The translations under genes and the position numbers were made by a program. Below are positions 1-49,169 of a stretch of DNA of 64,000 bases, one piece after another. The DNA lies in assembly GCA_020055645.1 (NCBI GenBank), contig CM034550.1, forward strand, positions 13,901,001 through 13,965,000, read 5' to 3'. This stretch comes from Tomocerus qinae (lineage: Eukaryota; Arthropoda; Collembola; Entomobryomorpha; Tomoceridae). Numbering within the stretch: position 1 is the first letter of the stretch; every line of letters starts with the position of its first letter. The notes under the pieces were generated by a model, which was not told the origin of the DNA, made no database searches, and was given only the letters and a program-made list of their open reading frames with translations.

Positions 1-2572
<2,572 letters not shown>

Positions 2573-5500
2573 TTTTCTAATTATTTTGTAAACAATGGCT
2601 TTACTTTGAAATATTATTCAAGAATTCCAAACGTAAAAAAATTGTTCCACTGCCTTATTTTCTTGATATCAAAAGTGGAACTAAAGTTGACTTTCACTTC
2701 ACATTATATTCAAGTTGAATTGATATTGATAGTTACCAAAATATCAGCATGAATTTCAATTCTCCAGTTGCAATTTTTTGCGTATAATATGGAAACTTGG
2801 TGTTGCTTAAATTAAATATGCTTATTCTAATGTAGTTAGTTTGAAAGGCGTAGGGAGATGAACTCTGTTGTCTTCTATTTGCAGATCCTTTGGCAAATTG
2901 GCACAAAAATATTTAGGCAAATACTGGCAGCAGAAAGGTTAAGTCTGCAAATTCAAATAAATCAGTATATTTGCAATATACTCCAAGTTATATTATAGTT
3001 AAGAGTTCCAAATGTTCATAATAATGATGAATATAGCATTTTTGTGTTCAATAATGACACTTACTTTAGGTTATGTGAGCCAAAAACAGCAAATCAAATA
3101 GATAACGCTCTATTAATTCGTCAGCTGTTCGTAGTTCGTAATGCTGCGTTGATTTATAAGTTCGATGAGCTGAACAAAGACCTTGCAATGGACTTGACCT
3201 AGTTAAAATTTAATAGTGAACATGAAGATATGCTAGTAAATTAACCAACACTAAATGAAAAATTAAAGTATATTGAATGAAAACTAAATGCACAAAAGTA
3301 GTGTAAGTAAATCGTCGTAGTTGGTAGTTCATAGTTGACATTTCTGACATTGCTTTGAAATTAAATAACTTACCAGAGATAGAACCAGTGCCTAATCCCC
3401 GTCTACTAATACTTAACTATTGGTGTTTCAAATAAATTTTCGAATTCCACTAGCTAGTTAGCTTTAGCTATGAACCTAAATCTACAAAAATTGTAAAAGT
3501 TACTGTTGAAATGAAACAACTTTATACTATTCAAAAGTTGCTCAATCTCAATCTACTTGCTAAATAGCGAGTGCGCTGAAGTTAGCCTTACATATGGGAT
3601 GCACATTCCGTCTTTTTTGTTCTCCTATCTATCTCCGAAACTTGCAACGCACTATCATTCTCAAAATTGTCTACCGTAAAAGAATAACTTTTATAACTCG
3701 ATTCAATTGAATCTTCAGCTATTGCTTAAAGTTTTCAAAATAAATAAGGATTTATGCGAAAATAGTTGACACTTTCCCGTATATTTACAAATATCTAATT
3801 TTCAAGACAAAATACAGGCCTCGTTTTGCCGATTAGAAACTTAACTAAAAGAAACTATATACTAATAAAATATGTCATGATATATGTCTAATTCGATATA
3901 AGTCAAATGATTTTGCAATTTTGCACCTGAACTGAGTATATCAACTACTGAGAATGTAAATTAAGTGTAGATCTTGGAACGAAAAATTGCTATGAGATGA
4001 TTATTGTTGAGGGGTTAAATTAAATGGAGCTTTACGGTATAATTTTTTCCTTAACTATACTGTCATTCTACGTAAAACCACAAACTTTTAGATTTGAACT
4101 GAAATGAATTACATATGTAGCGATTGCTTTCTTATAAAAGGGAAGGATGTGTTAGTTGTTACTCTTGTCAAAACTTATCAAAATAAAGGGTATATTTAGA
4201 ATAGTATTCTATGCTAAGTAGACAGGAAACCGTGAAACCAATGTACATGTCCCATACAACGAAGTAATAATCCTGAATTACAATCTATATACCAGATATT
4301 TATAATTGTGCAGGTATATGACATTGTTATCTGTATTCTTTTGATCTCTGATTTTTGATACGCTGCAATGTAAATTAATATGGTAAACATGTACACCAAA
4401 GTGGAAGCAGATATAAATCACTTAAAGTCACCTACCGCTATTAGTACCATTTATTCAATAAAGAGACATTAAATTAGTAAGGTAAAAGTGTTCAGTTGTA
4501 TGTTTGGTAAAAGAAACTATGGTGCTATATACAGGATGCATTAAAAATGTATCGCGATCATGAATATTCATACAAGCTACTTATGTGGCAGTGGAAAATA
4601 GTAATGTATCGCTTTGAATATTTTCATAAGTAGATTCAACTATTTTCTTGTAAAATTCTGCTACAAGCATGCAGTTAGAAATGAGGGATTTTGGCAGTTA
4701 ACACTTTAACACAATATAAATAATATTATACACTACAGTTGAACTTTGTCGTTTGTTATTGACAAAAGTGTTGTTAAATAAGAGTTGTGTATTGCCTCTT
4801 ACAATTCATAATATACTGCATATGTAATATACAAAGCTTATGGTAAATTCAGGCTGTGCAGGTAATTATTGTGATAATACATGTTTGTGATATGTAGACA
4901 CACAGCCAAAGAGATTCCACGTACGCGGTCATCATACGATAATGATAAAACGAAATGACTTGCACAAGCTAGAGTTTTACATTCAGTAGTTGTACATTGC
5001 ATTGGTATTTACTTAATGCTCATTACCGAGTACAATAAGTGTACATGAATACATATGATACTACGTATTAACATGTATGTCAATGTATCCGTGAAACGCT
5101 TGCATCTAAGAGGTTAAACCCACAATCACATTACTATAGCATATTGTAAGCAAATTAAATATTTATTTTGCTAACTAAAATTGAAATTGCAAAAAAATAG
5201 TAAAGGTATTGCAATTTCTAAATATTTTAGCATCGTATGGCTTTGTATTTAGCATGAAGATATTTAAAACCACGCAAAAAAAACAGTGTCTAAAAGAAAT
5301 AGAATTGTGTACATAAATTGTTGTACTTAGGTTAGACTCAAGTTCAATGAAGCCGAAGCTTGTAAATTATAAAGCAAGTTTAACTGCAAAGGCGTTTCTT
5401 TCTCACTCAATAAGAATTTTTTTGCTTATAGCCAAAAGGCCTAAGTTATTGCATAAGTGTATAGCTCAGTGCGGTTTCAAGAATTGTGCTGCTCTCTCAC

Positions 5501-8914: not shown

Positions 8915-10122
8915 ATGAAGAAAAAGCCAAAGCAATTACCATTCATCCTTGGGATGAAACTTTTGTCCTTGTATTCCTTTGTAAGTATTTATTCCAATCT
9001 TTGCTACTACCTCAATTGATATTCGATAAACAAAATACACTCAGAAAGACGCAATTTTAGATCTGAGAACACTATAACAGATAAAATTAAGAAATGATGC
9101 GTAATTTTGGTAAAACTATGGACATTACGGTAGGAAAATTAATTTTACTAAACTTTTATAGTTTCTAGGAATCGGGCTTTTGTCAATTTGTTTCTGGACA
9201 TTACTATCTCTTTGTGATGATTCTATGACTATGGATGAAAGTTCTTCCTCAATGAAAGGAAACTCAAGCGATGGCCCAAAACCGGAACATTTCACAGCAA
9301 TAAGCATATTGAATCAAGATCAAGCCTTGAACAGTGTCAATGATACTGAAATTGAAAGTGCGGTTCAAAATATCAAGGAAACTTTGCAAGTTCTGTCACC
9401 TTTTCTCATCGGTTCCTGTGGAATTTCTGTTTTGTGTGGATTTATTCAAATTATCACATCTTTGGTCATTATCTGCTCTTCCGTTCCGGTAAGACAAACC
9501 AAATCATCCAAAATAGCAAAATAAACAAGCTTTTAATCAATAACAAAGGAGCTTACCCAAAAATTAAGACAAATGAGCTCTGAGAAAATGCAAATGAGTT
9601 TCTTGGGCCATAAAGCCCTGGAAATCTTGTAATTGATATTTTTCTATTGTAATCGAATCTTTGACAAATTGATAATTGCCTTTTCTTTCACAATTTAATG
9701 AAGAATTGTACTCGTCTACATGCTAAAAGTTCCCTATAAGAAAAACAAAAGCGCTATAGTTTCTTTCTTTATTGTATTTGCAGGGGGCAATTAAGAGATC
9801 TAGAGCTTGGGAGGTCGTGCATGTCATGCTAATTCTGGCTTTTATCGGCTGTTTCATTATCCCCGTGACTATCGACAAGACTGCAAAGGATGGAGGGATC
9901 CAAACACATGTGAATAAAGGACTATTGAAAATTTTAGAACCTTTGAAGGAAATACACAAAATAAATCTACAAAGACAAGTCAAAAACCTGTTTCTGTTCT
10001 ACATTACACTTCTTGTGAATATCTTCGGGATTTTACTCGGCTTTCTAATTTCCCATTTCTGTGTCTCCAAATTAAAATCTAAAGTTAAGCCAGGCAAGGT
10101 TTTTGCATCTGAACGATTGTGA
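8915..10122 (+). CDS. Four-transmembrane protein of unrecognised family, copy 1
   Basis: Exons 8915-8980, 9162-9488 and 9784-10122, all joined in phase 0, encode 243 residues. Membrane segments lie at about 12-39, 101-129, 141-162 and 199-225. A roughly 60-residue Ser/Asn-rich loop separates TM1 and TM2, a short basic loop (GAIKRSRAWE) separates TM2 and TM3, and an amphipathic loop separates TM3 and TM4. The C-terminal tail is basic (SKLKSKVKPGK). The layout resembles tetraspan proteins, but the CCG motif and cysteine-rich large loop of tetraspanins are absent. Gene structure, the placement of introns at the TM1 start and before TM3, and the IICSSVP / LVCSSTL string after TM2 match the gene at 14309, so the two are paralogues. 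The open frame extends upstream of this ATG, so a longer N-terminus is possible. Function unknown. Confidence 0.75.
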
Positions 10123-12282: not shown

Positions 12283-12762
12283 CTAACGAGGTGGTTTTGG
12301 ATATCTCATCGATGATCCTGAACATGTTCCTACTCCATTTTCATCCATGTTATCGCAGAATAGAGAAGCTTTGCAGCAAGTATCGTCTTCTGTACACGGC
12401 TTCGAGTTGGCAATGCACTAGGAATTGGGATCAGAATATTTTAGCAACATACACAAGTATAAAAATTGTTAGTGAATTAGAAGAAAAATCTTTGCGAATA
12501 AAAATTACCTTGTCATCTCGTTTGAAGCGTTCTCCTTTTTCTAATGAACTAATGATAGATGAATCCTTTTCCAATTTAATCGCATGTCCCTCTAAAAATA
12601 TTAAGTCCAAACAATTTCAGGTTTAGTTGGTGATAAGCTAATTGAATAAAATTCATAAGTTTAAGATGGTTAAAGCATTCTGCATTCTGTACCACATCCA
12701 GCTTGGAAAAGTAAAATGGCCAAAGCAGAGCCGAAAAGGAAGCATGAAATAATTCTTTCCAT
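12283..12762 (-). CDS. Secreted cystine-knot (ICK/knottin-like) peptide 1
   Basis: Three exons on the minus strand: 12762-12693 (signal peptide), 12591-12509 (propeptide) and 12417-12283 (mature domain, stop TAG). Phases are 1 then 0, so the middle exon is required to bring the signal peptide into frame with the cysteine domain. The signal exon has a hydrophobic core ending FQAGC. The propeptide is charged and ends with a basic stretch (RFKRDD). The mature part is 44 residues with six cysteines spaced C-x6-C-x5-CC-x5-C-x10-C, the arrangement of inhibitor cystine knots, and ends in YPKPPR. Such peptides include ion-channel toxins, protease inhibitors and antimicrobial or neuropeptide-like factors; target and role here cannot be told. 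The paralogues are at 22184 and 23011. Confidence 0.82.
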
Positions 12763-14308
12763 TTCGAAGAGATACGATACACGATTACAGCGTCTGAATC
12801 GACTTTTTATTGACTTCCTTTTTATTTATTTAGTTTAGTTTCAGATTTCTGACGTAAGCTTTTGCATTTTTATAGGCAAATCCATTGGCACATGTGCTAA
12901 CATTTATTGCCCATTCTTTTAACATCTCATATTGTTGCCTTTATTAGCAATTTATTTCCAAATTATTAAACTAAACTAATGATACTAAAAAGTTGAAAAT
13001 TAAGGTCTAAAACTGATCTTTTGAAGCAGCAAGACATTAGATAGGCTAAAATACTTTTCAAGCACGATTAAATCATCAGAGACTTGTCCCTGTTTTATCT
13101 TAGCTGTAACAATAATTTTGTCTACTTTATATAGTCTCATAAATCCAAAAGTTCGAGTTAGAGCTTTTCTCTATAATACAAAAGTTGTATATAACAGAAA
13201 AATTCTTAGGATTTGTTTCTTAATTATTTTCACACTTTTTCCTATTATTTTTAATTGATAATTATGTTTCTACACTTCTCTAACGTTTTAGTATTGTCTT
13301 TCTATTCAAACAAGTTTTAGTGACACTAAAGGTGCCTATTGCGTTCAAAGGAATAAAGGGAAAACTAAATAAATAATTGCATCATTTTATTAATTAGTGC
13401 TGTAGACGTAAATGCAGATTTTTATTAGCTTATTAGCATTGTGCTTAGTGTACGACAACTTGATGAGCGATAATTGAAAACTATTGCCAAACATTTACTT
13501 AGCATGCGGGGTAATGTCAGATATCATTGACCCTGGATTGCAAACGAAACCCGTACATCTTTTATAGCTGCTGCATAGTGCACTGTAGTGTTAATGACTA
13601 ATTGAATGTTGCAAATGACGTACTTTTAAGATTGTATTTTAGTCACCAATGATAAAATCATGTAAGCTTTAAAATTTGACATGTGAGAAGGAATGAACTG
13701 TTGACCGACATTGTCATTATAATAATATGCCATATTAGACATTTTTCATGTGAATAAAGGGAAAACTACGGTAGAAGAAATTCTCTGAAGGAAGTTGAAT
13801 GCTCTAAAATATATGTAATGAATAAACGAACAAATAGAAAATTAGATCACTGACTACACATATAAATCTAGAAAGAAAAGCAAGGACGATATATTTAAGG
13901 ACAGAGGAAACGTGTAAATATTCAGGGACTTTGTACCTACGTAAATCCGGAACAACGATATGCATGCAATGCCTCTCTGCTGAAATATGTCGTTAAGCAC
14001 GTTTGAAGTAAATATTTGTTATTTGTGTAATTACGTAATATTTACTGTTTTTCCTTAATTGTGTTTTGTAATCTAGTCCTACATTTAGTAGACATTTTCG
14101 TAAGACTATATATTTATATCAAGTTGATGACAAAACCCCAATGGAAATTAGATAGGCCCGACACAGTTGAAGGTTAGCAATTTTTTTAACCTGAATCTAA
14201 AAGATTCTTAATGCCACGAGCTTTCATATTCTTGTCAGTTTCTTGACAAATTAATTGCTGAGAGGTTGTTTCTACTTTCTGACTGTGTTTAACTCGATTC
14301 TACTACTC
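12763..14308. other. Intergenic; contains a displaced knottin-type promoter
   Basis: Upstream of knottin gene 1 and the second four-TM gene. The only recognised element is the promoter-like block at 13125-13146 (separate entry). The rest is AT-rich with no supported coding frame. Confidence 0.5.
13125..13146 (-). promoter_or_regulatory. Conserved TATA-box block of the knottin family, gene 1
   Basis: Plus-strand reading CTTTATATAGTCTCATAAA; on the minus strand this is a TATATAAAG-type TATA box. The same 22-base block lies upstream of the other two knottin genes, where it is 71-79 bases from the ATG. Here it is about 360 bases upstream of the ATG at 12762, so a 5' untranslated intron or an insertion between promoter and signal exon is likely. 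Confidence 0.6.
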
Positions 14309-15293
14309 ATGGCAATAATTTACTACATTCATAAGGGCATTGCTGGATTTTCTGCGGTAATTTGTATTTTATTATCGTTATCTACATTCTACACTTGGCT
14401 ATAATATTCTATATAAATTATTTTTTATATTATATATAGGTATTAGCTGTAACAGTGCTAGTAGTTTGCACCTGGACATTTTGTTCAATAATATATCGTG
14501 TAGATCCTGACAAACACGAAAGATACGAAGGAGTGGTGATTAGCTATGGAGCGTCTCAAGATACGAATCTAAGATATGAAACACAAGATGAGGTTCCCAG
14601 AATTGATATCAGACTTGGACCAAATATTCTAGACTATCTCACTACGACTACGACTCGAAGACCTGAAAAATTTCTCATATCTCCAGTTAATAGCACGTTC
14701 AAATTCCAAAACGAGTCAGGATACGATCATTTGGCTACTTTTGACAAAATAACAGAATCCTTTGAAAAGATAATAATAGGATGCGTGTGGGTGTCAAATT
14801 TCGGTGCAATATTGCAATTCTGCAGCTGTATCTTTCTTGTATGCAGTTCTACTCTTGTAAGTTACAAAGATAAGCATCTGTCTTCAAAACCCTTGATCTT
14901 TCTATTGAATTATTCTAGAACATAATTCAATCTTTCTCTCTTGTACATAAAAGAATCTCAAGTGAATGTTTCTTTTTTACATTACAGAAAATGCCTCAGA
15001 GGGCGAAATACTTTGTAGCAATCCACTTGTTAGTTTTTATAATTTTGATAGCAACTTTTGTCATTCCGGGAATGTACAACAGAAAAGACGACGAATTCTA
15101 CACTATGACTGGATTTAATATGCAAGTAAAGAAGTCTATCAGTGGATTTAGTAAAAATCTCAAGCATTTTCTACGTTTTGATCTAAATTCTTACTACACA
15201 TTCCTTGCTGTCGACATTTCTTTTCTCTTCATTTTCATGGTTTCTATTTGTTGTCTCATGAGATACGAAATAGATTCTTATGACTCTGTGTAA
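14309..15293 (+). CDS. Four-transmembrane protein of unrecognised family, copy 2
   Basis: Exons 14309-14356, 14440-14856 and 14988-15293, all phase 0, encode 256 residues. TM segments are at about 10-34, 127-154, 162-184 and 222-248. The TM1-TM2 loop is about 90 residues and carries a TTTTTTRRPEKF stretch and N-glycosylation sequons (NST, NES), consistent with an extracellular loop. The basic PQRAKY turn before TM3 mirrors KRSRAWE in copy 1. Cysteines cluster in and beside TM2 and TM4. Intron positions and phases match the gene at 8915, supporting tandem duplication with strong divergence. An AATAAA polyadenylation signal lies near 15433. Function unknown. Confidence 0.8.
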
Positions 15294-17558
15294 ATTTACA
15301 ACCACATAACTAACTCTTAGTAATATTTTGATTTATGATACCATATGATGATTAAAAATTATTTTCTTAGTATTAATCTTACAAAACATTGCTGAATATT
15401 ACTACAATCAAGTGTTAGTGTTACAAATCTTGAATAAATATTATTTTGTATAGTAAAGGAGTGGAATATTCATTATCTTTATAGTCGACAGCAAACACAA
15501 CTCAGAATGTCCTAGAGTATGTTAATTTATCTAAATAGGATTTTTGTGGTAGCCATAAAGGTTAGTACACCATAGTAGGAAAATAGGACCACAGAAAAAC
15601 ATTTGCGTAATTTCCCATGTTAGAATTTCTATTAGAATGTTATAGGAGTGAGGAGGATATTGGTTAGCCATTCAAGGAATAGTAGAACAAGAACGGATAT
15701 CAGAAAGCATAGTTGCTATTAATTTATTCAGCAAGCAGTGGAAGTAGTGAATGAAAATGTGTGTTAAACTGAATGTGAATTTGCGGGTCGGGTTGTATCG
15801 TAGAATGTGCTATTATGTAATGTGTCTAGGTTCTAAGGGTGAAATTAGCAATTTAATAGTGAGTATAATACATGCGGGTTTCTCTATTGGGAAATTATAC
15901 TTATTTACAGAGTAAAATGAATTCTCAGCAATAATAAAGGAATAGAAAGAGAAAAGCATATTATTTCGGAGAGACTGACTAATGGTAGTACTGTAGCGGA
16001 AATGTTATTTCGGTCGAGACGACGAGACAGATGAAGGTATTGGAAAGTAGTCCATCTGAGTCTCTAAGTCTCAAGCATTGAAACAAAGTCATCCCAGCCT
16101 GCTTCCTTTTTAGATATATAAAGATCCCTTCAATCGTCGTAATAGCTAAATAATAGTTATACTTATATACTTATCCTATTATTTCCTGTTTTCCTGTCCA
16201 CAGAGTGGAATTCGAGAAATGTAGCCAAATTGCAGATCGAAAACTAAACTCGCATTTCTCTTTACAACTCATCGATTTCCCATTCTGTGTTCACAACTCA
16301 AAGCAAAGCCTGGCCACTCAAGATACTCCGAAAGGGACCTGCTCTGCTTACTCAACAAACTAATCTGAGAGCGGCTCTACTATTTTCCAATACAATACTT
16401 CTATATAACTATTTTTACTCTATATATAGATTATATATTTATAGTACTACGAGAATATTTACAAATACAAACATTACCTACAGAAATACGTAACCTATAT
16501 TCACGCCGAAAAAAAAATTCTTCCGAATCATGAATGAGCGTAGAGGTAGAAACTCTAGTAAACCGATAACATATAGCTCTATATCTTATATTACCCTTTT
16601 TTATCATGATTTTACTTTCTTTTGCTGACATGACAAGTCAACAGAGTGTATACGACGGATGCAAAGAGAAATTACTATTTTATATAACTATACACAATCA
16701 CATACAATGCTTATATATAACTCTAAAACAGTAGAGCTTGACTTTATAGGGTCAGAGTTTAACGGAGACATTAGGAAATTCTTAAGAAAACTATTACTTG
16801 ATTTCTTGCGATATATTTTATATCTATGCATGTCTTTTTCTCTTGTTTTCTAGTACATTGCTGTTTAGGAATGCTACGCTGACATTCGTTGTGGTCTTGT
16901 CATTTCGACCTAAACTTTAATAATATCCCCAATTGCGTCATGTTTTCTGTCTTTATAAATATACACTACTATATGCCGATTTTATAGATTTATCTCCTGT
17001 GTTTACCCAACCATAGTTGCGTTTTGTACTGAAAGATGAGTGCTCTACTAGTGACTAATGTTATAAACCAAAAGCAGGCATTTGTGTATGATGTTTGTAA
17101 TATAATACACAACTTTTCCCTTTTGGCAACAAAATAAACGGTTAATTTGACCACTAGATTGCATTATGACTAATGACGTTAACTAAAACTCAATATATTT
17201 TACATTCATTATAATCAGAGCATATATTAGTCATTTATACGTGGTCTAGATACTTGATATCATTGTATGCTGCTCTAAATTAGCCTATCTATTTCCTAGA
17301 TATACTACGATTATATAAATTATGAGTAATTGCAGTTTACTAATAATTGTCGCCTCCTGTACAACATTTATAAATTATAATTTACTAGAGTTTTGAGACG
17401 GAGTGTCGTCTGTCATAGTTGAAAAAAGAAATATAAGTCACAATTCCTTAAAGGGACAATTTAACTATAGCTCTATGAGTTAATTTGGTTCAGAGAATAT
17501 TGATCTATAAGCTATCCCTTCTATTTAGGTCACGGATAGTGATTTATTGATATTCTAA
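15294..17558. other. Intergenic, no gene recognised
   Basis: AT-rich spacer between the second four-TM gene and the Ig-domain gene. The open frames at 16287-16493, 16431-16631 and 16659-16853 are short, low in complexity and unsupported. Confidence 0.5.
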
Positions 17559-20208
17559 ATGATGTACTTCAGGAATTGTGGAATTAGAGCTGTTAATACA
17601 TCTCTAGTTGTGATAATAACGTTATTGACAATAGTACAAAGTTGTCCATCTTTCGAAGGTTACAATGTATATCACAAATATACAACGGAGAAGCCTAAAT
17701 TGGAATTTGATCCTGTCAGTCTGTCAAAATATATCGAATATGATTCCGAAATGAATAATACAATTTTGATTAACAAAACTGGATTAAGTTTTCATTTCAA
17801 CTGTTGGGCACCATTCCCTATAGATTTCAATTTCTCAGGGCATGTGGTACGTAAACTAATTATTTATCAATTATTTTATAGAGCATGTATTCTTTATTGG
17901 ACTAATTTTCAATTATTCTTATGGAAGAGTCCTGGTCTAAGTAAGGATGAAGTCACAGTCAGAATTTTTCGAAAACATTTCGAGCTGGATAAACATAAGC
18001 CAAATAAACGCATATGCTACGGAATTAACGTCACTCTTCCTGCATATGAAGAAACAACTGGCAATTACAGTTGCTTTGCTGTTGCGAATGTATCCAGGAT
18101 GCAATCATACTACATTTTTGTGTCGCGTAAGAGTTTCTATCTGATAATCCCCACTAATTATATAGTTTGATCATTAAGGTTTTTTCCCTGTAGCATCACC
18201 ACCCGGAGTTCTTCTCAAGAGAGGGCAAAACGTAATAATATCATTAAGTCCTCGAGCTACGTCAGTTGTTTTTCCTTGCGCTGTTTCCAATCCTGATGCA
18301 AAGATCAGACTAATTAAGGTTAGTAATGATAGCCTTTACCATTATAGTATAAATTATAATTGCTTTACCAATATACCCTTCTTTGCCCATGATATACAAT
18401 ATTTACTAAAAATAAACAGGACTACAGGGAAATTCCACTCGAGAAAGATTTATTAACATTTGACCCAAAAATCGGATTTGTTATGAATCTCACTAATACT
18501 AGACGATATTGGAACGATTATCAATGCAAATCTGAACAGAGTTCAAACGATGTCGTTAACATTACCTTACGGCCAAAAGGTTCGCCAAATTTCATTTTTA
18601 AGCTACTTAAACTGGATCACTGCTACCTGCATCACATTACATAATTTAAACATTTAGAATTGTAAATATTTTATTTAGACTTTTTCGTTACACCAAAACT
18701 ACCAAATATTCGTCATACGAAAATATTGTCTTTGTCTTGTCAATCGAATGAAGCAGTCCATTTCCAAATGAAACCTACAAAACCATTCCACTACGAAATT
18801 GAGAATGTACAAAATACATCGATGTATTTTTACGATTTTGTTGTAAAATTCCAAAGCGAAGAAATCAAATCGAATACTGAAGGATGGATTGCATGCGTGA
18901 AAAACTCAACTAACAAGGATCTGTATAGATGGACATTTCAAGTGGTCGTTAACAGTAAGATTTTGTAAATTAAAATAAAACTATTACGTCCTTTTTGGTA
19001 AGTATTAAGTATCAAGGTGTTATTTTGCAGAATCTAAAGAAGCCCCATTCACAGAAAATATCAGAAGTGCCTGCGATTCGAAAAATTTGACTTTCTGTCA
19101 AGAGTGTAATAATTGGATCGAATGTAACATAAATAAATGCTTGAGTAAAGTGAGTAAAGGAATTGTGCCTCAATTAATTAGTAGTTGAAAGGAAACCGGA
19201 AATAATTAATTTTCCGTATGATTTATTCTTTCAGGACAAAAGCTGTCCTTCTTCCAAATGCTCACTTTCCCAACTTCCGAATGCTGTCATTCAATGTCTT
19301 AATCCTAATAATCAAGTCTCGGAAATTTATTTCACTGGATTGAACACATCTAAGCAATGTACAAAATTGATAACATGATTATCAAACTATAGCAATATAC
19401 TCAGGTTGTAATAAATAATTATATATTTGGTAGATACAAATTGGACTAAGGCACCTTTGAAGGATATCCTGCAAGCTGGCCAAGTTATAGATCCGAATGT
19501 AAACGGGCTAAAGTTTTCTTGCGAAGGTTCTAGTTTTGTTTTTGCTTCAGGATTCCATTGGTTCTACACTTTGAAAGATGGGATTCGGATGGATATACCC
19601 GACTCTAGTATGTATTAGATATTTGCATAACTAATAATCCTACTAATTAGTTACAATTTCCTGATAAACATGCTTAAGTGAAGTAAACCTATTTAAATTA
19701 GCTCCTTCCTACTGTACATATTATTCCTTACACATTATTTGGTGTAAATTATTGTATCACTAATTAAAAATCCGAATTTTCGTATAGTTCAGAATGTGAG
19801 ACAAACCTGGGGGAATACGAAGGCTGTGTTAAAAAGTTTTCTAGATCTGAGTACATTGCCCAGTATGGCAACGCAGATAATTTGTTCTGCTCCCGTGTGG
19901 AATAGTACAGCGTGGAAAGAAGTTTCAGTGAAAGTTAACCACTTACATATTAAAGGTCCGAACTCTTCTAATGTGTACCTGTATATCCAAAAATATAAAA
20001 CGTAGTGTGCATTTCATTAAAAGAGAAACTGTAGGCAGACTTATGCCTTCAAAGCATAATATTACTTCAGTAAATTACTTTTTCATGATTATTTCTAGGT
20101 AAAAGCACTTCGAATAGCATCAAAGGAAGCAAAGGATTTGGATATACGATTTTCTTAGGAGCTTCTGCTCTCTTCAGATCTATCTTGCTCAAGGTTTTGA
20201 TCAACTGA
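17559..20208 (+). CDS. PVR/VEGFR-like Ig-domain protein without kinase, anchored or secreted
   Basis: Ten exons with fully consistent phases: 17559-17846, 17928-18126, 18194-18318, 18420-18579, 18679-18954, 19031-19149, 19235-19358, 19434-19607, 19788-19955, 20099-20208; 580 residues. A signal peptide spans residues 1 to about 28. Ig-like domains follow: Ig1 has FNCWAPFPIDF and TTGNYSCFAV. Ig2 has VVFPCAVSNPDAKIRL, TFDPKIGFVM and WNDYQCKS, a combination typical of PDGF/VEGF receptors (PVR). A third has ILSLSCQS and GWIACVK, and a last has LKFSCEG, FHWFY and IICSAPVW. Exons 6-7 form a cysteine-rich insert of about 10 Cys between Ig domains. Many NxS/T sequons are present. The end is Ser/Gly/Asn-rich followed by a hydrophobic tail and stop, like a GPI signal or single tail anchor. 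No kinase exon is seen downstream. A decoy or ligand-binding role is inference. The donors at 18580, 19359 and 19956 are weak. Confidence 0.8.
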
Positions 20209-22183
20209 TACACAATTCATCGTTCCTCGAACAAGAACATGTTTAAGGCTCAACTTACACAAGAATCTAGGCCAAGTTTAATAAAATTCATATATGTATG
20301 TCTTTACAATGTACAACTAGATACCAATAAACAAGTAGAAAGACTGAAAGATCAAAATGTTTACACTTCCCATTCATCTCCACCTACGTAGTAGTTCTTC
20401 CGTATCATTTTACATTATTAAGTCTGCAATTATTTATAATAATACACTCCTCCATTTCATAGAGTCTTATTTATTGAGTGAAGTAGTAACTTATTCCTTT
20501 GCAATAGCGTGAGTTGCACTCCATCCTTATTTTTTATTCATGAAAAGCTAATGATGTGACTGAGGGAGCATTACGTAAAATTTTACTCTTCAATAAAACT
20601 TGAGTAATTGTGTAGGAGATTGTAAAAAGATTCTGTGCAAAGAACGTTACATTAATATCAAAGAAAATAAAGTAAATAAACTGACAATGACAAAGAAACG
20701 GCAATAACTTTCAGTTGACCTACTTTGTAAAAATGTCAATTGAGTTGAATCCCTATGTATTATTGCTTTGAGAGTCTTAAATATGTTACTAGTAGACGGA
20801 GGAGGAGGTAGTTGTTAGTTTTGCTTCAGCCCTTGCTTATTTCCCTTTCCTAAATAGAAAATACATCTAAATAGATGCCCCGTACAATATAAGACTACAC
20901 TGCTGAGACCAATCCTTTTAAAAGATGTCGGAGAGTGCATAAAACACAAATAACATACGTGTATCTACTATAACTACACACTAAACAAGTATAGTCTGTT
21001 ATAATAATATAGAATATCCTATTTTCTATGCTATATAGTGTCCTGGTTCATTGTAAGTGTAATGGGACACGAAAAAATGGGGGAAAAGGGAGACTTTGGC
21101 TATTTGGCTCTTCCGTCCTACTATTCTGCACACTAGAAAACAACCTTGCAGAATTATACATGTATATGCAGATATATAATATACCTACATATATACTAGT
21201 AGCCAAGCCCAGTTGTTATTCTGTAATATTATTCCATCTCATCCCACAGTTGGTATTAACTACTTGCTAAGTAAATGGATATGTTTCAGATAGATACGAG
21301 TGTGTAATATTAGACTAGGAAAACTTTTATCCTTCAACTGTATTAGTTTACCAAAAGGATATGTATAAGTATGAACTTTCATAAGTATTATTTTGGACGA
21401 TTTCGGGAAAAGCCCGGTATGAAAGCAAAGTTAGCAAAATCCTTGTTTCTGTCAAAACAATAGAGAAACTGTATTTACTCCTCAGTCACAGAGAATATGA
21501 TATGATAGATCCCAACCAGAATAAAGGACTAGGAACAATAGAATGGACAGACAGGAGTTCTTCCATACAATTTCGCCAACCCAACTCAACTCTCTACCAA
21601 ATTGAGCTCCAACAACAGAACTGAACAAAACAGACAGAAGTGTCTAGACCCGACTCGAGGGCATTCAAAAGGATTAAGTAAATAAATTAGAGGATATTTG
21701 TGGAGCTTACTGGTTTTGTTTCGTTCCTTTATATCCTCCTCCTATTCTCATTAGTTTATTATAGATAATACGATGACTTTGCTTTCTCCTAATTCTGTCG
21801 ATCTATACTTTATATTATCTATTTTATTCTTTCATCTTTCAACAATAAATCCCTCACACTAGTAAATCTCTCCTGTCAGCACTATTCTGCTAAAGCAGAA
21901 GCGACAGAATTATTACTTTTCAAAATCACTGATTTCTTTCAATTAATTCTCGATTTGTAAATTTTTAAAATAAACTGCTGATTCTGCTTGACCCCTCTCA
22001 AAATGCTAATAATTTCAAATCCTGGATCATTCAGCTATAGATATTAAAAAATTCAAATTAGTTTTTTGATAATATTTGTATAATAGTTTTAAAAAATGAA
22101 AAACTTTTATTTAGATTTCAAATAATATGTAAACATCATGAAAATCGAATATATATTTATTAAAAAATTGGATAATGAATTTT
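20209..22183. other. Intergenic, no gene recognised
   Basis: Contains the likely polyadenylation signal of the Ig-domain gene (AATAAA near 20325). The rest is AT-rich. A short open frame at 21028-21270 has no supporting features. Confidence 0.5.
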
Positions 22184-22634
22184 TTAATTTCGTGGTGGTT
22201 TTGGATATCTTCTGACACCATTGCAAATGTATGTCCAATTCACCCAGTCATCCGATTGTGGCTGGCACATTATATCGCCGCAACACAAGTTAATCCTATC
22301 GCCCATGACACAAGGCTGATATTTGGGGATACACTGTAGTCAGAAATTTTAAAAAATACATTAAATTACCATTCGAATTCAAAATACTATTAAAAATAAT
22401 TCGAAATTGCAAAACTGCGTCATCTTACATCTTGTGTCCCATTTTTCTCTTGTTTCAAAACTTTTATAAATTAATAATATTTTAATAAAATTTCAATTTG
22501 TTTATTTGTACGTAGAATAGAAATGGTATAAACTGGAAAGATAAGCTAATGTTTTCGATACCATCACATTCAGCTTGGAAGAACATCATGGCCAAAACAC
22601 AGCCCAAAAGTAAGCTTAAAATGGCTCGAACCAT
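22184..22634 (-). CDS. Secreted cystine-knot (ICK/knottin-like) peptide 2
   Basis: Minus-strand exons: 22634-22562 (signal peptide), 22460-22429 (32-base microexon) and 22333-22184 (mature domain, TAA). The signal exon ends in phase 1 and the cysteine exon starts in phase 0. The microexon, bounded by AAAAG and a strong GTAAGA donor, is exactly what is needed to reconcile them and adds a short charged propeptide. The signal core GCVLAMMFFQAECD is nearly the same as in gene 3. The mature part is 49 residues: C-x6-C-x8-CC-x4-C-x13-C, ending YPKPPRN. The six-cysteine CC pattern supports an inhibitor cystine knot. The target cannot be inferred. Confidence 0.85.
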
Positions 22635-22704
22635 TGTAGAGATTTTTTCAGTTGGTGGTCGTTATTTGCTCGTAACCTCTGATTTTGGTCACACATTTTT
22701 TTTG

Positions 22705-22726
22705 CTTTATATAGTCTCATAAATTC
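22705..22726 (-). promoter_or_regulatory. Conserved TATA-box block of the knottin family, gene 2
   Basis: Plus-strand CTTTATATAGTCTCATAAA, i.e. a minus-strand TATA box 71 bases upstream of the ATG at 22634. It is followed upstream by further similarity to gene 3 (GGTTATTGTTTCTTA and CTGTTAGGT words on the plus strand), showing that the promoters duplicated with the genes. Confidence 0.7.
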
Positions 22727-23010
22727 TAACATATGGTTATTGTTTCTTAATTATATTATAATTATTCTATTCTATACAAGGTCCCCATCGCTGTTAGGTT
22801 TATCGTACACATACTTATTATTGCTGCATTTCAAATAAGTAATTTCAAATAAGTAATTTGAGAAAGGAATTAAGCTGGATGTAAAACACAAAAATTGGTT
22901 AACAACTTTTCAATATTGTTTTTATTGATCATTTATTACTTATAGAAATAAAATGAAACCTCAATAATACAATTGTATGAGCTTATAGTGAGATAAAATA
23001 CTAGAATTAT

Positions 23011-23348
23011 TTATTTTCGTGGAGGTTTTGGATATTTTAAGGCCCCTGCGCAAATACTTTTCCATCCCCCTTTGTCATCTGGTTGAGCAATGCAAAATAC
23101 TTTTCCTTTCGACTTTGGTTCGTCGCAACAACTCTGACTCTTATCTCCGATTACACAAGGTCCCGTAAATGGGATACAGTTTTCTACAAATTGTAAAATG
23201 CTTTAATAAAATTGTTTATTTATACATAGAATAATAATATGATAAATAGAAAAGATGAGTTAATATTTTCAGTACCATCACATTCAGCTTGGAAGATCAT
23301 CATGGCCAAAACGCAGCCAAACAGAAGGTATGAAAATGCTCGAATCAT
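23011..23348 (-). CDS. Secreted cystine-knot (ICK/knottin-like) peptide 3
   Basis: Two minus-strand exons: 23348-23276 (signal peptide) and 23183-23011 (mature domain, TAA), separated by a 92-base intron and joined in phase 1. Unlike genes 1 and 2 it has no middle propeptide exon, and its acceptor lies five bases further upstream of the first mature cysteine, which restores frame. Signal core GCVLAMMIFQAECD. Mature spacing C-x6-C-x8-CC-x10-C-x13-C, ending YPKPPRK. It is about 0.7 kb from gene 2, so the two are a recent tandem duplicate with a diverged mature domain and a conserved signal exon. Confidence 0.85.
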
Positions 23349-23426
23349 TGTAGAGATTTTTTCAGTAGATGATTGTTATTTGCTCGTAGCCTCTGATTTT
23401 GTCACACATATATTATATTTCTTTAG

Positions 23427-23448
23427 CTTTATATAGTCTCACAAACTC
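23427..23448 (-). promoter_or_regulatory. Conserved TATA-box block of the knottin family, gene 3
   Basis: Plus-strand CTTTATATAGTCTCACAAA; a minus-strand TATA box 79 bases upstream of the ATG at 23348. Nearly identical to the blocks at 22705 and 13125. Confidence 0.7.
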
Positions 23449-25004
23449 TAACTTTCGGTTATTGTTTCTTATAATATTTGGCAATAATTCTTTTATTGTA
23501 AACTAGGCCCCCCAACACTGTTAGGTCCCCATCCTCGCTCTCAATGTACAAGTGCCTGGTGGCGATGCCGGTCGTCAATATTTTTCAAAAGATTTACGCG
23601 TCAACATTTGGTTCAACATTGAAATATGTTAATACTACCCCAGAAGACAAAATAAAGGGGTGTGCTTAAACATGGGACAAGAATTTTTTATACAAAAAGG
23701 TAGTTTTTATTAAATTTGGAGAAAATATCTAGTGTGTTGAGGAATTTAGGGGATGCTTAAATATCCTAGCATCTCCCTAAATACGGCCTTCCAGAGTATA
23801 GGTTATTGTTTTATGTAATACTAACCAACTATACATAGATATATAGGTAGGTTAATTTTTTCAACACTGCGATTATATTATAGATAGAACAAATTGCATT
23901 AGCGCTTGCGCATTTTGTATTTTGGCTCACCCTACCACACATATATAGATAGAAACATGCATATGCATGCGAAAAAATGATGTCATAGTAGTGCTGAATG
24001 GAGGTTATCAATATAATTAAAAATTCCTTACTTGCATTGCTAAAACTGCTTTATCTACGATGGTGGTTATAATATTAAGTTTACTTTTAATCTGCAATTA
24101 CAATATTACTACATCATGCTTATTTCGTCATTTTCGTCTAATTACACTTTTGTTTGGAGGAATAAATTTCTCTATTGTTTTCTGAGATTGCATTCTATGC
24201 TTATGTATTTTTATTTCTACTATACATATATTTAGCGCATCAGTATTGACGTATTGTCTATATTATATCCTAACAGTGCGTAGTAAAACAGCCACTGGGA
24301 TGCTCATTGTGTACAACGGAATGACGAATGGAATGTAGAATAATTAATTTGAATGCAAGCAGATATTTTAATTGCTTATTGTCTAAAGAACTAGAGCTAA
24401 GGTCTCAGTACTATTGCAGAATTTCAAAATGATTAGGCATATTAATTTTTAATTTGAAAATAAGCTAATGTACGTATTGGACTTTCTTGTTTTTTATGAA
24501 ATAATTGTAAACACGCGTGTGCATTATTACAACAATAAGCCCAAATGTCCATGGCATAGATATTTTGTGCCTGCACTTGTTTCTGAATAATAACCTTCAA
24601 AACGTTGTTGTACATAACTTAAATGATATAACAAGTAAAAGGTACAACTATATACAACAGCATTTATTGCTTTTACTTTCTATCTAAGTTGTACTAGGTA
24701 AGTCATATTCTGTTAACATTTTTACTGATGGAGACTGGATGGAGACGGAGTAGTATTATAGTCATGATTCTAGTTCAACCTAATGTTTTGTCTATGTAGT
24801 AATGGAATAAATGTTATCTTGTAAATACCTATGTAGAATATAGATAATCTATGAAAAATGTTAAAAGTCACAATTTAGATTTCCATTACTCATTTCTTAT
24901 TAGCGTCCATCCGTGCATTTCACATGCATTTAATTTTATACGGAAAGTTATGCTAGGAAGTCGTAGGGAGACAAGGGAAAAGGTAAATTGTACATGCTAC
25001 GGTA
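23449..25004. other. Intergenic, no gene recognised
   Basis: The first ~80 bases still resemble the upstream flank of knottin gene 2. 24427-24570 holds one copy of a dispersed repeat (separate entry). The remainder is AT-rich with no supported coding frame. Confidence 0.5.
24427..24570. repeat. Dispersed repeat copy, related to 35874-35970
   Basis: Shares ordered blocks with 35874-35970: TTCAAAATGATTAGG, a TTTAATTT..GAAAATA.GCTAAT block and GTCCATGGCATAGA. The blocks are collinear, with divergent or inserted sequence between them. Likely an old non-autonomous element. Confidence 0.5.
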
Positions 25005-32100: not shown

Positions 32101-33782
32101 TGAGCGAGAGAATGTAATAGTTTAGAGTATAGAAGCTGAGGCGACATGAAAATATTTATGTAAAGTGTCGCTCTACTATAATAGAGTAAGGTAGCACCCG
32201 GGTAAAGTATGCATTTCAGGTAAGAGAAAAATTGCCTTATGTCAGTGTAAAAATAGTGCATTGAGTCAAGTGCTTATGTCTCAATATTAAGATAATGCAA
32301 ACGAATGTTGTGCTCAAGCAGTGGATAGTGGCACTTACCATTATCACTCTATAGTACCCGCATTGTTGCATTGCATCACTATCACTGTACTTACATTAAT
32401 GGTGTTTCCCCTCTTACATATACTACCTGTAATGTTTTATTGTTTAAGCAAGTGATGAATAAAACGTATCGAAAGAAAGAGAAGAAACAGCTAACATCTC
32501 ACGATAACATTGTCATATTAAGTCTGGTAATGGAAAATAGGAAAAGCACTTTGAATGAAGTTAGAACCATTATACTAGATATAACATTTCCATTTACTTT
32601 CAAGCATGAGTGGCAAACCGATTTTCAGCCCTGGAGATGAAACGTCCTATTCAGATAATATTGACGTATCTTTAACGTCGTAGACGTAAAAAAGAAAACA
32701 TCTGTATGATTATTATCCTTACCTAGATGTAGTAGAGGGGGATTATACATTGCGCGTGTCGTTATATTTGAGTGTGAGGGATCTTATTGTCATAATAATG
32801 TGGAAGACTCTCAAACAGACAATTTAGGCCAGACAATGGGAAATGTACATAACATGATGATACATATAATACGTCGTTAAAACATTAGAAATGCATTGTG
32901 TCCAAAGTACTTTTCCAGTAAAAGGAAAAGCAAACTCAGAGCCAAAGCAATATACATTACACACTCCAGTTTGTCCACACTCAGCACTAATTTTCCAGTT
33001 GCTGGAAACAGTATAAGATACATAGAAAGAACTAGAAACTAGAGATGGACTGGAGTAAGTGTAGAAGAACATTATTATTCTGTTGTAGGAAATAGCGAGA
33101 GAGAATTGAGCTCATTTATTATTTATTTATCTGCAAAGTGCACTACTTACTTTATTGGTGGCGGTAGAAAAGCCTTGTTTTCCTGTTTTATATCTGTCTT
33201 TTTGGTTGGAAAAGTGTACACATATTTTCTTTTCGTCGAATTTTCGAGATTGTAGCGTAAACGAATGACATTGACATGTAGACGGTGGTAGGCTTAATTA
33301 AATGGATTGTGTCTTGTCTCTGAATCTCTGTCTGTCTACCATAAACAGTTGGATCCTTGGCACTTTGTTTCCCAACTTAAATTCAACATTTTCTCCAGGC
33401 GAAATTCTCGAAAAGCTGCACACAAACCCAGAACGACAGCATCCCACTAGACTAATGGGAAGAACAACGAAAATATAAAACGTGGCAAACAGAACTTTCT
33501 CGTTGAGTTATTTTCCTTGTTAGCTTTTCAGTTTTCACTAACTAGCTCCTCACCGCACTTTTCCCGGAAAATCGAGGAAAATGTAGCACAGTGTAAATTC
33601 TACCTTCTAAATAATTTACTCCAACGACGCTGCAAAGGAAATGAGTTTCAGGTAGTGAAATTGGTAGGAAAAGCGACAATGACACTAACAACTGTTTTAA
33701 TTGTAGCAAAGTGAAGCAGTGCACAGAAAAATGTCCCGGGAAAATTTAAAATAGCACTAATCATAATGTTAATTTTTTAGGT
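26144..33782. other. Large gene-poor intergenic region
   Basis: About 7.6 kb without a supported protein gene. Open frames near 27187-27540, 29504-30161, 31410-31695 and 32371-33072 are short, overlap on opposite strands or lack splice partners and domains. A (CTGT)n microsatellite lies near 30586-30602. The end of the region must contain the rab3 upstream untranslated exon, since rab3's ATG sits two bases after a splice acceptor. Confidence 0.5.
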
Positions 33783-36495
33783 ATGGCAGGTGGAGGTGAG
33801 AAGTGGGGTGGTGGTGGTGGCGGAGGAGGAGGAGGTGGAGGAGGAGGAAAAGATGCAGCAGACCAAAACTTTGATTACATGTTCAAGCTTTTGATAATTG
33901 GAAATAGCAGTGTTGGGAAAACATCATTTTTGTTTCGTTACGCTGATGACTCGTTCACATCCGCATTTGTGTCCACCGTTGGAATCGACTTCAAAGTTAA
34001 AACTGTATTTCGACAAGACAAAAGGGTCAAACTGCAAATTTGGGATACAGCCGGCCAAGAAAGATATCGAACCATCACTACCGCTTATTACAGAGGGGCT
34101 ATGGGTTTCATCCTCATGTACGATATTACTAATGAGGAGTCCTTCAGCAGTGTTCAAGACTGGTAACAACCCAACTATTATTTCTGCTTTCACAGTTTAC
34201 TTTTATTGCATTTACATGCTAATTTCTCAAAGAGAGTTGCCAGTTAGTTTGATTTTCTATGCTGCACTGCTTTCGTTCTTTAGCATCCACTATCTTTCTC
34301 ATTATTATTTATTATAGTCTACTTTGCTCTTCATTACTGCAATTGTTTCCTCCGGCGGACTGTCATCCTGCAATAAGAACCACCCTAGTTCAAATGATAA
34401 TGAAAATGTAGTTTATTTCATTTATGCGCAAGATTACTAGCAGAAGCTACTCTCTTTTTCTGCATTACGGTAAATATTCCTTTTCAGAATAGTCGCACTC
34501 GAGCGAGCGCCTAGGAAATATGCTTGGAATAAGAGAGAAATTGCTTTTCTGCAACCAAGATGAAAGTTTGGCTAATGGAACAGTCAACAGTTCAGAAAGA
34601 TCTAGATATGTATGTACTTTTACCTAATACGGTAGTCTTGCTTTAGAACTTTTCTACGGATTCACCAATATCACTGAATTCTGAGTAGATAGAACCCTCG
34701 ATGCAAACTGTTCAAACTTCTACGTATTATCCAACCTAGCGAAGACTTTCTATGTAATTATGAACTGATTTTCTCCGTTTGTTAATACTATCTTTCATTC
34801 ATTCCCACCCATTGAGACACTAGTTGCAACTTTACAACCTTTAGATATACCAAGAATAATAAATACTGTATAGATTTTGCCGTTACAGTCAACTTTCTAA
34901 CAATCAGGTACCTATCTTTCCTTTCCTAATCCATGTAGTAAGTCAACGCAAAATATTACAAGGTCATTGAAAATAAAAGGTTGCTTAATCACAGTGACTT
35001 TTTAAGGCTTGAAACTTTTTCCAAATTAGAGATTTGCAATAACGCTACCATTCTACTTTGTCTACATTTTGAGTACCATCAGAACTGGGAAAATAATACT
35101 AGCATTACCCACAAAGATATTTCCACTACTGTGATAAAACATCCACCGATATGCCATTTACATTTGCAGTAGTATGTGTGTCTATATTATAATATGCTAT
35201 GTATTTATTTAGAATTTGCAGTGGCATTTTATTATTCAGAATTAAAAAGTAATAATATCTACGTACTATATTTATGTTGTACATTATAAAGTAAAGTTGT
35301 CGAAAGCTTGGAGTATATTGTGAATAAAAATATTTTGGTAGCCTTTATCCGTAAAAATTGAATTGTTATGAATCAAAAGGCTGGAAGCATACCTGTTTTG
35401 AATATAAGTATATTCACGCTTCCTATATTTTAGCTATTAGATGGAATTTGTGTTCACCAAAAATTGTGCAGATATTTCAATAATATAGCTATTTTCCAAG
35501 GCAAGGCTGTATTGAGGTGGGCAATGGGGCAAATGCCCCTCCGAAATCCAAGAAAAGAGGAAATTTTTTCTCAAAATACCAAAAAATTTCGCGCTTCGCG
35601 CGATTTTATGTAATTTTTAGGTTATTTTTGACTCATTTTAGATAAAATAAGCAAAATTTCCCGCGCATAGCGCGATTATATGCCTAATACATATAAGTGT
35701 ATGACGTCATTGCCCCCTCCGAAATCGACTTCTAAATACAGTACTGTTCCCAGGGTATGTGATCAAAATTCGGAAGGGATTATTATAGCCCCAGCATGCT
35801 TGACTCAATTTCGAAAGATAGTAATCCAGCATAAACTCATAACATAATCATGGACATACTACTACTGCTTAACTTCAAAATGATTAGGTATCAGAGGTTT
35901 AATTTCGAAATACGCTAATATTTTACAACAAGCGCATGCGCATTTCAACAAAAAGCAGCAAAGTCCATGGCATAGAAAATAGATACATATTTGCATACAT
36001 ACATGCAACATAGGTACAATCAGCTTTATTTATTTTGATGATTCATAATATTTTGCAGTTTATTTGCTTCTTAAGTAGAAAGAGAGATAAGTATTGGTTG
36101 AAGGTGGGGAATTATGAAGCCACTACTATATGTCGTATATGTTGAAGAAATGAAATGTGATTGTATTGAAAATCAGGGTAACTCAAATCAAGACGTACTC
36201 ATGGGACAATGCGCAAGTGATCCTCGTGGGAAATAAATGTGACATGGAGGACGAGCGAATAATATCATACGAGCGAGGCAAACAACTGGCAGATCAACTG
36301 GGCGTCGAATTCTTTGAGACATCAGCAAAGGAGAACATCAATGTGAAAGCCGTCTTCGAGAGACTCGTTGACATCATTTGTGACAAAATGTCTGAATCCC
36401 TGGACTCTGATCCTACGCTTGCCAACTCCGCGAAAGGAACTAGATTAACAGAAGCAGGAGCAGGGAATCCACAAAACGGATCTTGTCAATGCTAA
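33783..36495 (+). CDS. Rab3: Rab3 small GTPase
   Basis: Synaptic-vesicle and secretory-granule GTPase. Exons 33783-34162 and 36177-36495 join within a Trp codon (QDW) and encode 232 residues. Visible motifs: P-loop GNSSVGKT (about 40-47), switch [13 protein letters not shown], switch [22 protein letters not shown] (diagnostic of Rab3), NKCD and ETSAK for guanine binding, and a C-terminal CQC for double geranylgeranylation. The ATG is two bases after the acceptor TTTTTTAG, so a 5' untranslated intron exists. Odd feature: a run of 14 glycines (about residues 9-22), encoded by mixed GGT/GGC/GGA codons, is inserted between the usual short N-terminus and [13 protein letters not shown]. The intron is about 2.0 kb and holds repeats. 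Confidence 0.97.
33804..33848 (+). repeat. GGN trinucleotide repeat inside rab3 (poly-Gly)
   Basis: Fourteen consecutive glycine codons of mixed GGT/GGC/GGA usage. The interruptions suggest the tract is translated and maintained rather than a fresh expansion. Confidence 0.85.
35520..35730. repeat. Repetitive element in rab3 intron with GCGC palindromes
   Basis: The motif GCCCCTCCGAAATC occurs near both ends in direct orientation (about 35536 and 35711, the second with one extra C). The interior carries CGCGCTTCGCGCG and CCGCGCATAGCGCG, GC-rich palindromes that stand out against the AT-rich intron. Looks like a dispersed repeat or remnant of one. Confidence 0.5.
35874..35970. repeat. Dispersed repeat copy, related to 24427-24570
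   Basis: Contains TTCAAAATGATTAGG, TTTAATTTCGAAATACGCTA and GTCCATGGCATAGA in the same order as the copy at 24427, with an intervening GCGCATGCGCAT palindromic block. Confidence 0.5.
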
Positions 36496-47400: not shown

Positions 47401-48369
47401 GTAGCTAAACATAAATCACCTCATTTGAGATAAATCTGTTTCATATTCACAGGCCACGGTCGTAGGTGGAACTCGCCCCTTCTGCTCAGCGACTTTAATC
47501 ACAAACCAACACGTCCTTACAGCTGCTCATTTCCTATCCAAGTAAAAACTTCATTTCCGAAATATTTCTGGAGATTAACTCTGAAAATCAATTCTAATTT
47601 ACTATTCTTGTCTCTTACAGCATAACTGTCTCGGATGTTTACCATATGCGAGTTCATATTGGCTATCGAGCATCTGAAAATGGGGCTACTATGGGACCTT
47701 ATGCTGTGAGGAAAGTAATCAAAGTTGTTCGTCATAAAGGATTCAGTTTTGAGAAATTGGTATATTGTCATTGCATTCTAAACCGTAGGAGTCCTAAAAA
47801 TCTAATTTTCAATATTAACTATTAGATTATCTGTTGAATTTTTTCAGTACAACGACATAGCTATTCTAATTTTGGATCGGCCCGTGCATTTCAACGACAA
47901 TATCAGCCCAGTGTGTTTATCAAGTGGGAAAACGAGTTACGCTGATAAAGAAGCAATAGAAACAGGCTGGGTAGAAGATCCCCCAACGAAGCATATTAGT
48001 AAACATCATCCATTCATTGATCCACAGATTCAAAAATATTTCAGTTTCGGCTATCATAATGTAACATGGAGTTTGATGGAAGCTTCAAACACAGTAAAAA
48101 GTAACGAAGAATGCCGAGCGAATTATGGTTTCCTGGAGAAGAACGGAATAGCCATAACAAAGTCGATGGTATGTGCAGGTTCGCCTGAAGGAAAAGCCTG
48201 TGGGTTCAGGGGTAACAGTGGAGCACCCTTGGTTGTATCTAGCGATGGAAAACCAGAGCAAGTTGGGATTGTCAGTTGGGGAATTGGTTGTGGGCATTTT
48301 CCAAGTGTTTTCACACGAGTATCTTCATTCATTCCATGGATCGAGCGAGTGGTATTCCACACTAGATAA
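41467..48369 (+). CDS. Clip-domain serine protease homologue A with giant repeat linker
   Basis: Exons 41467-41581, 42902-43270, 43392-47284, 47453-47541, 47621-47759, 47848-48369; phases consistent; 1708 residues. A signal peptide (LLLFTFLCVSNIIHC) is followed by a clip domain with its six cysteines (MECLTPTNARGFC, FRQCVPSFF, GFCNTT, RIICCPG). Then comes an acidic linker of about 1270 residues, rich in Ser/Thr/Asn/Glu, with two repeat arrays and a mucin-like T/S end. The trypsin-like domain begins near residue 1440. His (LTAAHF) and Asp (YNDIAIL) are kept. The Ser motif is GNSGAP instead of GDSGGP, with two extra residues after the preceding Cys. The Cys after His is missing. The activation site would be FR/GLQEP rather than R/IVGG. 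Probably a non-proteolytic homologue (SPH) that may act as scaffold or cofactor in melanisation or clotting; residual activity cannot be excluded. Confidence 0.88.
44430..44830 (+). repeat. Coding repeat array 1 in linker of clip gene A
   Basis: Degenerate repeats of about 20 residues with a shared pattern of (V/I)ANDxQxxTxExxPxFxS. Each unit is acidic and has a Thr-Glu or Thr-Thr pair. Not a perfect DNA repeat, so the array is old. Confidence 0.65.
44970..45555 (+). repeat. Coding repeat array 2 in linker of clip gene A
   Basis: About nine tandem units of roughly 21 residues (about 63 bases) built around NENRxDEIQTTTGSYIL. DNA similarity between units is higher than in array 1. Confidence 0.75.
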
Positions 48370-49169
48370 TGATGTTAGAATTAATCTTAATATTTATGTA
48401 TGCAAAGGTATGTAATTGTATGTTAAAGGGTATTTGTTGTGAATTGAGGTTACAGTTGTGTGTGTTTGTAATTATAAATAGGGTAGCTAACTGAAAATGT
48501 AGTAATCCTACATTGATTTTGCCATTGGTGTGAATAAATGTTGAAAAATACCCCGTGTACTTGCATTTTTGAACAACAAAGTCTGTAAGCTCATATTTCT
48601 CAACTATTCTCAATTATGACAATTTACTACAATGATTCTTGGTTGTCAAATGAAGAAATCAACGTTTGTTGGTTTGTGCCTTGTACAAATTGTAATTGAA
48701 GCATTAAATCGCAGTGTTACGGTGTAACGCAGAGAGAGAGAAGAGGCAGTAGAAATTAACAGATCATTCATTCAACATCCAAAAATGGTACATATGGGCT
48801 TAAAATGTATTAATAGACTATTCTGTTGAAAGATTTACAAAACAGTTACCTATGTTCCTTTTTAGCTACTGAAGTACATTGCACTGTTTACCAAGTTCGA
48901 TTTCTAATTAGCGCTTCACTAAATCCCAAAAGAGTTTCCGCACAATACATTACGGTAAACAATTGGGAAGTAAACAATAAGATTCTGTGACTGAGATTAC
49001 ACGCATACGTAGGTACACATGAATTGGGTTGTCTTTTCATCCATTTTCCCTAATGCCTCTCATCTACTTTCAAGTTTCCACTTAAACCTCAAAAGTCTTT
49101 GCACATTTTATGTCGCCTAATTTCTTCCAACTAAATATCTCCCTTGTCACACTCAATTAAGCTTTTAAC
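48370..49169. other. Spacer between clip genes A and B
   Basis: AT-rich. A potential AATAAA polyadenylation signal lies near 48533. Nothing else recognised. Confidence 0.5.

Follow-up and report, generated by a model that had tools for sequence, protein, structure and literature searches.

What do three short genes encode that share a leader, six cysteines and the same closing hexapeptide? The question is raised by a stretch of 64,000 nucleotides of the springtail Tomocerus qinae (GenBank assembly GCA_020055645.1, contig CM034550.1, positions 13,901,001 to 13,965,000), hereafter the window, whose minus strand carries the genes g1 (12283-12762), g2 (22184-22634) and g3 (23011-23348). The original prediction had placed three genes for secreted cystine-knot peptides at exactly these coordinates. 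On balance, we lean towards reading the locus as a small family, specific to its lineage and made by duplication, whose secreted knottin-type peptides act as extracellular ligands. The parts of this answer differ in strength: it is very probable that the genes form a real secreted six-cysteine family, and probable that the peptides adopt a knottin fold; that they are ligands of a membrane channel is a tentative proposal, made by analogy.

The most likely models have three exons in g1 and in g2 and two in g3, as judged from reading frames and splice signals. Exon 1 of g1 (12693-12762, like all exons given here on the minus strand) holds the start codon and the predicted signal peptide and ends in phase 1, as its translation and a GT donor indicate; exon 2 (12509-12591), delimited by its open frame and AG/GT sites, runs from phase 1 to phase 0 and covers the pro-region to RFKR plus three residues; exon 3 (12283-12417) encodes the six-cysteine domain, YPKPPR and the stop. 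In g3, exon 1 (23276-23348) encodes the signal peptide and ends in phase 1, and exon 2 (23011-23183) encodes the six-cysteine domain and YPKPPR followed by Lys and the stop, without a pro-region.

The gene g2 is less straightforward. Its coordinates had been given correctly, as had those of the other two genes, but one exon that is needed for an open frame had gone unmentioned. Exon 1 (22562-22634, signal peptide) ends in phase 1 and the last exon (22184-22333, six-cysteine domain, YPKPPR plus Asn, stop) must begin in phase 0; a two-exon gene that joins them directly has a broken frame and was rejected. We therefore place between them a candidate exon at 22429-22460: these 32 nucleotides run from phase 1 to phase 0, share their first codon with exon 1, keep the frame open, encode a stub of 11 residues and end at a GTAAGA donor, and in the alignment with g3 their acceptor coincides with that of its intron 1. 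An alternative model, in which exon 1 would extend to the GT at 22511 and the frame would likewise stay open by read-through, is less likely, since in both g1 and g3 the first exon ends in phase 1. In the three models all five introns are GT...AG, of 91-101 nucleotides, and no internal stop occurs; the predicted proteins have 95 (g1), 84 (g2) and 81 (g3) amino acids. The signal AATAAA lies 22-84 nucleotides past the stop codons of g2 and g3.

The predicted proteins combine a common leader, a variable middle and a constant end, and their alignment contains 26 invariant columns. Every exon 1 has a hydrophobic stretch (mean Kyte-Doolittle hydrophobicity 2.5-2.8 over 12 residues) and its DNA is similar among the paralogues, in line with the shared signal-peptide exon that had been proposed. 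Besides the six cysteines of the domain, a cysteine at position 23 is common to all three; it probably lies at the signal-peptide cut (A-x-C before cleavage). What follows the leader differs: g1 has a pro-region of 25 residues that ends in RFKR, presumably a furin-like cleavage motif, the stub of g2 has no dibasic site, and in g3 the first cysteine follows exon 1 after just two residues. All three proteins then have six cysteines in the predicted order C-C-CC-C-C, with loops of 6-5-0-5-10 in g1, 6-8-0-4-13 in g2 and 6-8-0-10-13 in g3; the spacings of 5, 4 and 10 from the CC pair to the fifth cysteine had thus been read correctly, and each gene has the layout of an inhibitor cystine knot, six cysteines in this order with short loops. 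YPKPPR is identical in the three, as foreseen, and stands at the C-terminal end or one residue short of it; its codons differ by one to three silent changes per gene pair and by no amino-acid change. The predicted mature peptides have 47 (g1), 61 (g2) and 58 (g3) residues and net charges of -2, +1 and +3.

Such a pattern is rarely produced by chance. In a six-frame scan of the window, the pattern C-x3-9-C-x3-9-CC-x2-12-C-x3-16-C, whose bounds were chosen after the genes had been seen, matches three times, each time followed by YPKPPR; over 200 dinucleotide shuffles the mean is 0.035 matches and the maximum 1, and none reaches three. The DNA pattern of the tail has three matches with no mismatch; with two mismatches allowed, 3 of 100 shuffles reach three matches. 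A tblastn search of the window for a further copy finds none beyond the three genes at E < 0.7.

The genes also share what precedes them. An exact TATA element of 14 nucleotides, GAGACTATATAAAG, lies on the minus strand at 13125-13138 for g1, 22705-22718 for g2 and 23427-23440 for g3, and when two mismatches are allowed these remain its only occurrences in the window (shuffle mean 0.97, with three or more in 2 of 100 shuffles). It stands 84 and 92 nucleotides upstream of the start codons of g2 and g3 and 376 upstream of that of g1, a displacement that suggests an intron in the 5' untranslated region (UTR) of g1, or an insertion between the element and the start codon; a second TATAAA is found at 12874, 112 nucleotides upstream of g1. 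Between g2 (22462-22799) and g3 (23182-23526), both on the minus strand, a whole 5' block of promoter region, 5' UTR, exon 1 and intron 1 aligns with 77.7% identity over 354 columns (E 2.7e-75), and exon 1 of g1 is 79% identical to that of g2 over 58 nucleotides.

Segment by segment, and leaving out gaps, the identity of g2 and g3 is 87% in promoter and UTR, 84% in exon 1, 78% in intron 1, 67% in the core of the last exon, 89% in the tail and 68% in the 3' UTR. Shuffled controls average 60-66%; that of the 3' UTR is 66%, so this segment is barely alignable. Of 200 shuffles, none reaches the identity of promoter or of exon 1; for intron 1 (0.780 against 0.782), and for core, tail and 3' UTR considered singly, the best shuffle is not surpassed. 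The case for a homologous intron 1 therefore depends on the joint 5' block. The three genes are, by these resemblances, paralogues made by duplication.

Do they have relatives elsewhere? The family had been called undescribed-looking, and it keeps that look: no related sequence was found in the proteins, contigs, Pfam, NCBIfam and PDB searched. A protein search with the three-gene alignment, in a database that includes arthropod proteins, gives 12 candidates, none at E <= 1, and with g2 alone it gives none. This search needs common words of five residues, of which it takes no more than 100, and genes that are short and split into several exons often go unpredicted, so the absence of protein relatives is weak evidence. 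Among viral contigs, 37 and 5 pattern matches were obtained, none confirmed; the same holds for 108 pattern matches in contigs of prokaryote genomes, where an animal gene is not expected. The viral structure library yields 10 rows, the best with E 1.9, and NCBIfam a single match at chance level (g1, E 0.26). Pfam lists no significant relative; the best lead is Toxin_35 (PF10530) for g2 (E 0.019), whose 15.4 bits are below the cut-off of 26.8 for membership, and g1 and g3 are not listed. The profile search of the PDB gives no match; BZZ1 as a match of g2 (E 0.19) and enteropeptidase as a match of g1 (E 0.17) were set aside as chance. Springtail-leaning literature searches found no mention of YPKPPR, which may be described elsewhere, and nothing for springtail and cystine knot together.

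Structure prediction, which had been proposed as a check, agrees in part: the models resemble knottins, though weakly, and are of moderate quality. By our reading of their titles, 23 of the 25 structure-search rows of g2 belong to toxins or knottin-like peptides, as do 19 of the 24 rows of g1, several rows being the same molecule. Channels or receptors are the targets of many structural neighbours of the g2 model, and for this reason we favour as the likeliest use that of an extracellular ligand acting on a membrane channel or receptor; the neighbours of g1 are a more mixed set. The leader would direct the product to the secretory route, the pro-region of g1 would be cut after RFKR, three disulfides would lock the knot, and the variable loops 2 to 4 would bind the target; the tail, flexible, rich in proline and cationic, might be a constant handle, for docking or anchoring, that every member requires.

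The main rival to this channel or receptor ligand is that the peptides are antimicrobial or antifungal knottins of innate immunity that, like Alo peptides, act on the surfaces of microbes in haemolymph, gut or cuticle. Six-cysteine Alo knottins do occur in springtails, with the motif C-X6-C-X7-9-CC-X3-C-X10-C and mature peptides of 34 residues, according to PMC10051947. The first loop of all three genes (6) and the second loop of g2 and g3 (8) are within that motif as there described, g3 is cationic, and the structure-search rows of g1 include tachystatin from the horseshoe crab and a cactus antimicrobial peptide. The motif as a whole is not matched: second loops are 5, 8 and 8, third loops 5, 4 and 10, and fourth loops 10, 13 and 13, so that g1 departs from it in the second loop, g2 and g3 in the fourth, and all three in the third. 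Moreover, mature g1 is acidic (net -2), the charges of -2, +1 and +3 being atypical for a uniformly cationic antimicrobial family, and no antimicrobial Pfam family is listed up to E 10 with the HMMER filters on. We consider this rival somewhat unlikely.

A second question is what drove the mature domains apart. The original prediction saw here the usual sign of rapid diversification: loops do differ while signal and tail are kept, but positive selection is not demonstrated, nonsynonymous divergence (dN) of the core not being above synonymous divergence (dS). Between g2 and g3, dN and dS are 0.16 and 0.32 in the signal exon, and 0.57 (0.33-0.92) and 0.75 (0.36-1.67) in the core, where dN exceeds dS in 24% of 2000 bootstraps. 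These tests rest on 41 and 24 codons, and their p values are uncorrected for multiple tests. Nonsynonymous divergence of the core is higher than the divergence of intron 1 (p 0.012) and of the signal exon (p 0.001), as positive selection would have it; synonymous divergence of the core is also higher than that of intron 1 (p 0.02), which speaks against it, as does dN below dS. The tail is constrained relative to the core: none of its roughly 12 nonsynonymous sites has changed, where 39 of 98 have in the core of g2 and g3 (p 0.008, for a comparison picked once the tail had drawn attention).

The pattern has a simple reading: the 5' block may have been homogenised more recently than the mature exon, whose core would be weakly constrained; a homogenised 5' half explains a conserved signal and a diverged core without positive selection. 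Gene conversion of this block fits the identity of the 3' UTR, 68% against 66% in shuffles, when set beside the 78-87% of promoter, exon 1 and intron 1. Against gene conversion, the silent sites of core and signal exon do not differ significantly (p 0.32). Positive selection on the core is possible; that selection in the style of a venom arms race separates the mature domains while signal and tail stay fixed, a process compatible with the functional readings, seems to us unlikely.

Endogenous signalling in the manner of agouti or evasin, with the peptides as hormones or receptor ligands, the tail contacting the receptor and the knot a spacer, would account for six tail codons without amino-acid change among three genes and for the convertase-like site in the pro-region of g1, whose fold lists include agouti-signalling protein and tick evasin-3. 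These fold matches are weak, g3 has no pro-region, and the word-based protein search found no relative whereas hormones are usually conserved; we consider signalling improbable. Finally, that the loci are pseudogenes or chance open frames, to which the short extra exon required by g2 might point, is most improbable, given three six-cysteine frames with identical tails, when the cysteine pattern by itself averages 0.035 matches in shuffles, and given that the three models are free of stops and have splice signals at each of their five introns.

Returning to secreted knottin-type ligands, it is tempting to conjecture, although we would not bet on it, a divergent knottin head on an invariant YPKPPR docking tail: the loops would re-aim the scaffold, the tail would keep a single partner, and the pro-region would have been lost stepwise (25, 11 and 0 residues) by exon shortening and fusion, in an order across the paralogues that we infer. 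The three gene architectures illustrate how a pro-region may be lost, and with its tail fixed and its knot divergent the family is well suited to testing cleanly which part determines the target. The knottin repertoire of arthropods may also be undercounted, since short multi-exon secreted peptides easily escape annotation.

Several other features lie in the window. Similar sets of open frames, membrane proteins by eye, flank g1 at 9162-10122 (+) and 14440-15293 (+); Pfam gives sub-threshold matches only for 9162-9524 and none for 14440-14925. Between g1 and g2, open frames at 17559-18968 (+) resemble by eye a surface protein of immunoglobulin type, with no Pfam match for 17559-18170. A membralin gene occupies 680-2617 (-), with Pfam PF09746 at E 7.6e-32 for 1904-2617 and the leftward frames assigned by position only. 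A Rab3 gene, with no fewer than two exons and a long run of glycines close to its start, lies at 33750-36495 (+); spliced from the window, it scores best with Periplaneta americana among the best 120 of 1220 proteins (93% over the core), and in its best 30 matches the named ones are arthropods save one nemertean, in keeping with an arthropod as host. Pieces of serine-protease genes extend over 42871-62270 (+), with a trypsin domain at 47806-48369 (E 2.6e-23), a sub-threshold CLIP match at 61914-62270 (+; 17 bits, cut-off 20) and CLIP-like pieces by eye near 43000, 49500 and 56300 (+). The same region contains an open frame of 1330 residues at 43391-47383 (+), Thr/Ser-rich by eye and without a Pfam match, and a minisatellite at 51145-51958 with 31-nucleotide units, the number of copies varying by row from 22 to 26.

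How do these peptides compare with known systems? The spider knottins hybrid atracotoxin (2h1z) and psalmotoxin 1 (2kni, 4fz0) match g2 with non-significant phmmer E values of 0.34 and 0.98; their second loop is 6 where that of g2 is 8, and the aligned region ends at the YPKPPR tail or before it. The knottin scaffold is prone to convergence. The sequences give no evidence of common descent with spider knottins, and both these leads and Toxin_35 probably reflect the common cysteine layout. Xibalbins are pancrustacean knottin peptides of remipede venom; Foldseek lists xibalbin 3 for g1 (E 1.2), and the solved xibalbin, titled a double knot, is not among the PDB sequence matches of g1 or g2. A heparin-binding knottin motif is also described, in PMC9865768. 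In the nettle caterpillar Parasa lepida, knottin-like peptides without database relatives are reported, with evidence of expression in urticating hairs (PMC8145965); g1 to g3 resemble them in being hexapod, knottin-like and without relatives in the databases searched, and are here predicted from the genome sequence. With the Alo peptides of springtails and beetles, g1 to g3 share a secreted six-cysteine form, here predicted, and the sizes of the first loop (6) and, in g2 and g3, of the second (8); compared by the motif description in PMC10051947, they differ in the third and fourth loops (3 and 10 in Alo) and in mature length, 47, 61 and 58 predicted residues against 34. The scaffold is known, and the family appears to be new as far as the searches reach, set apart by its invariant tail and its graded pro-region.
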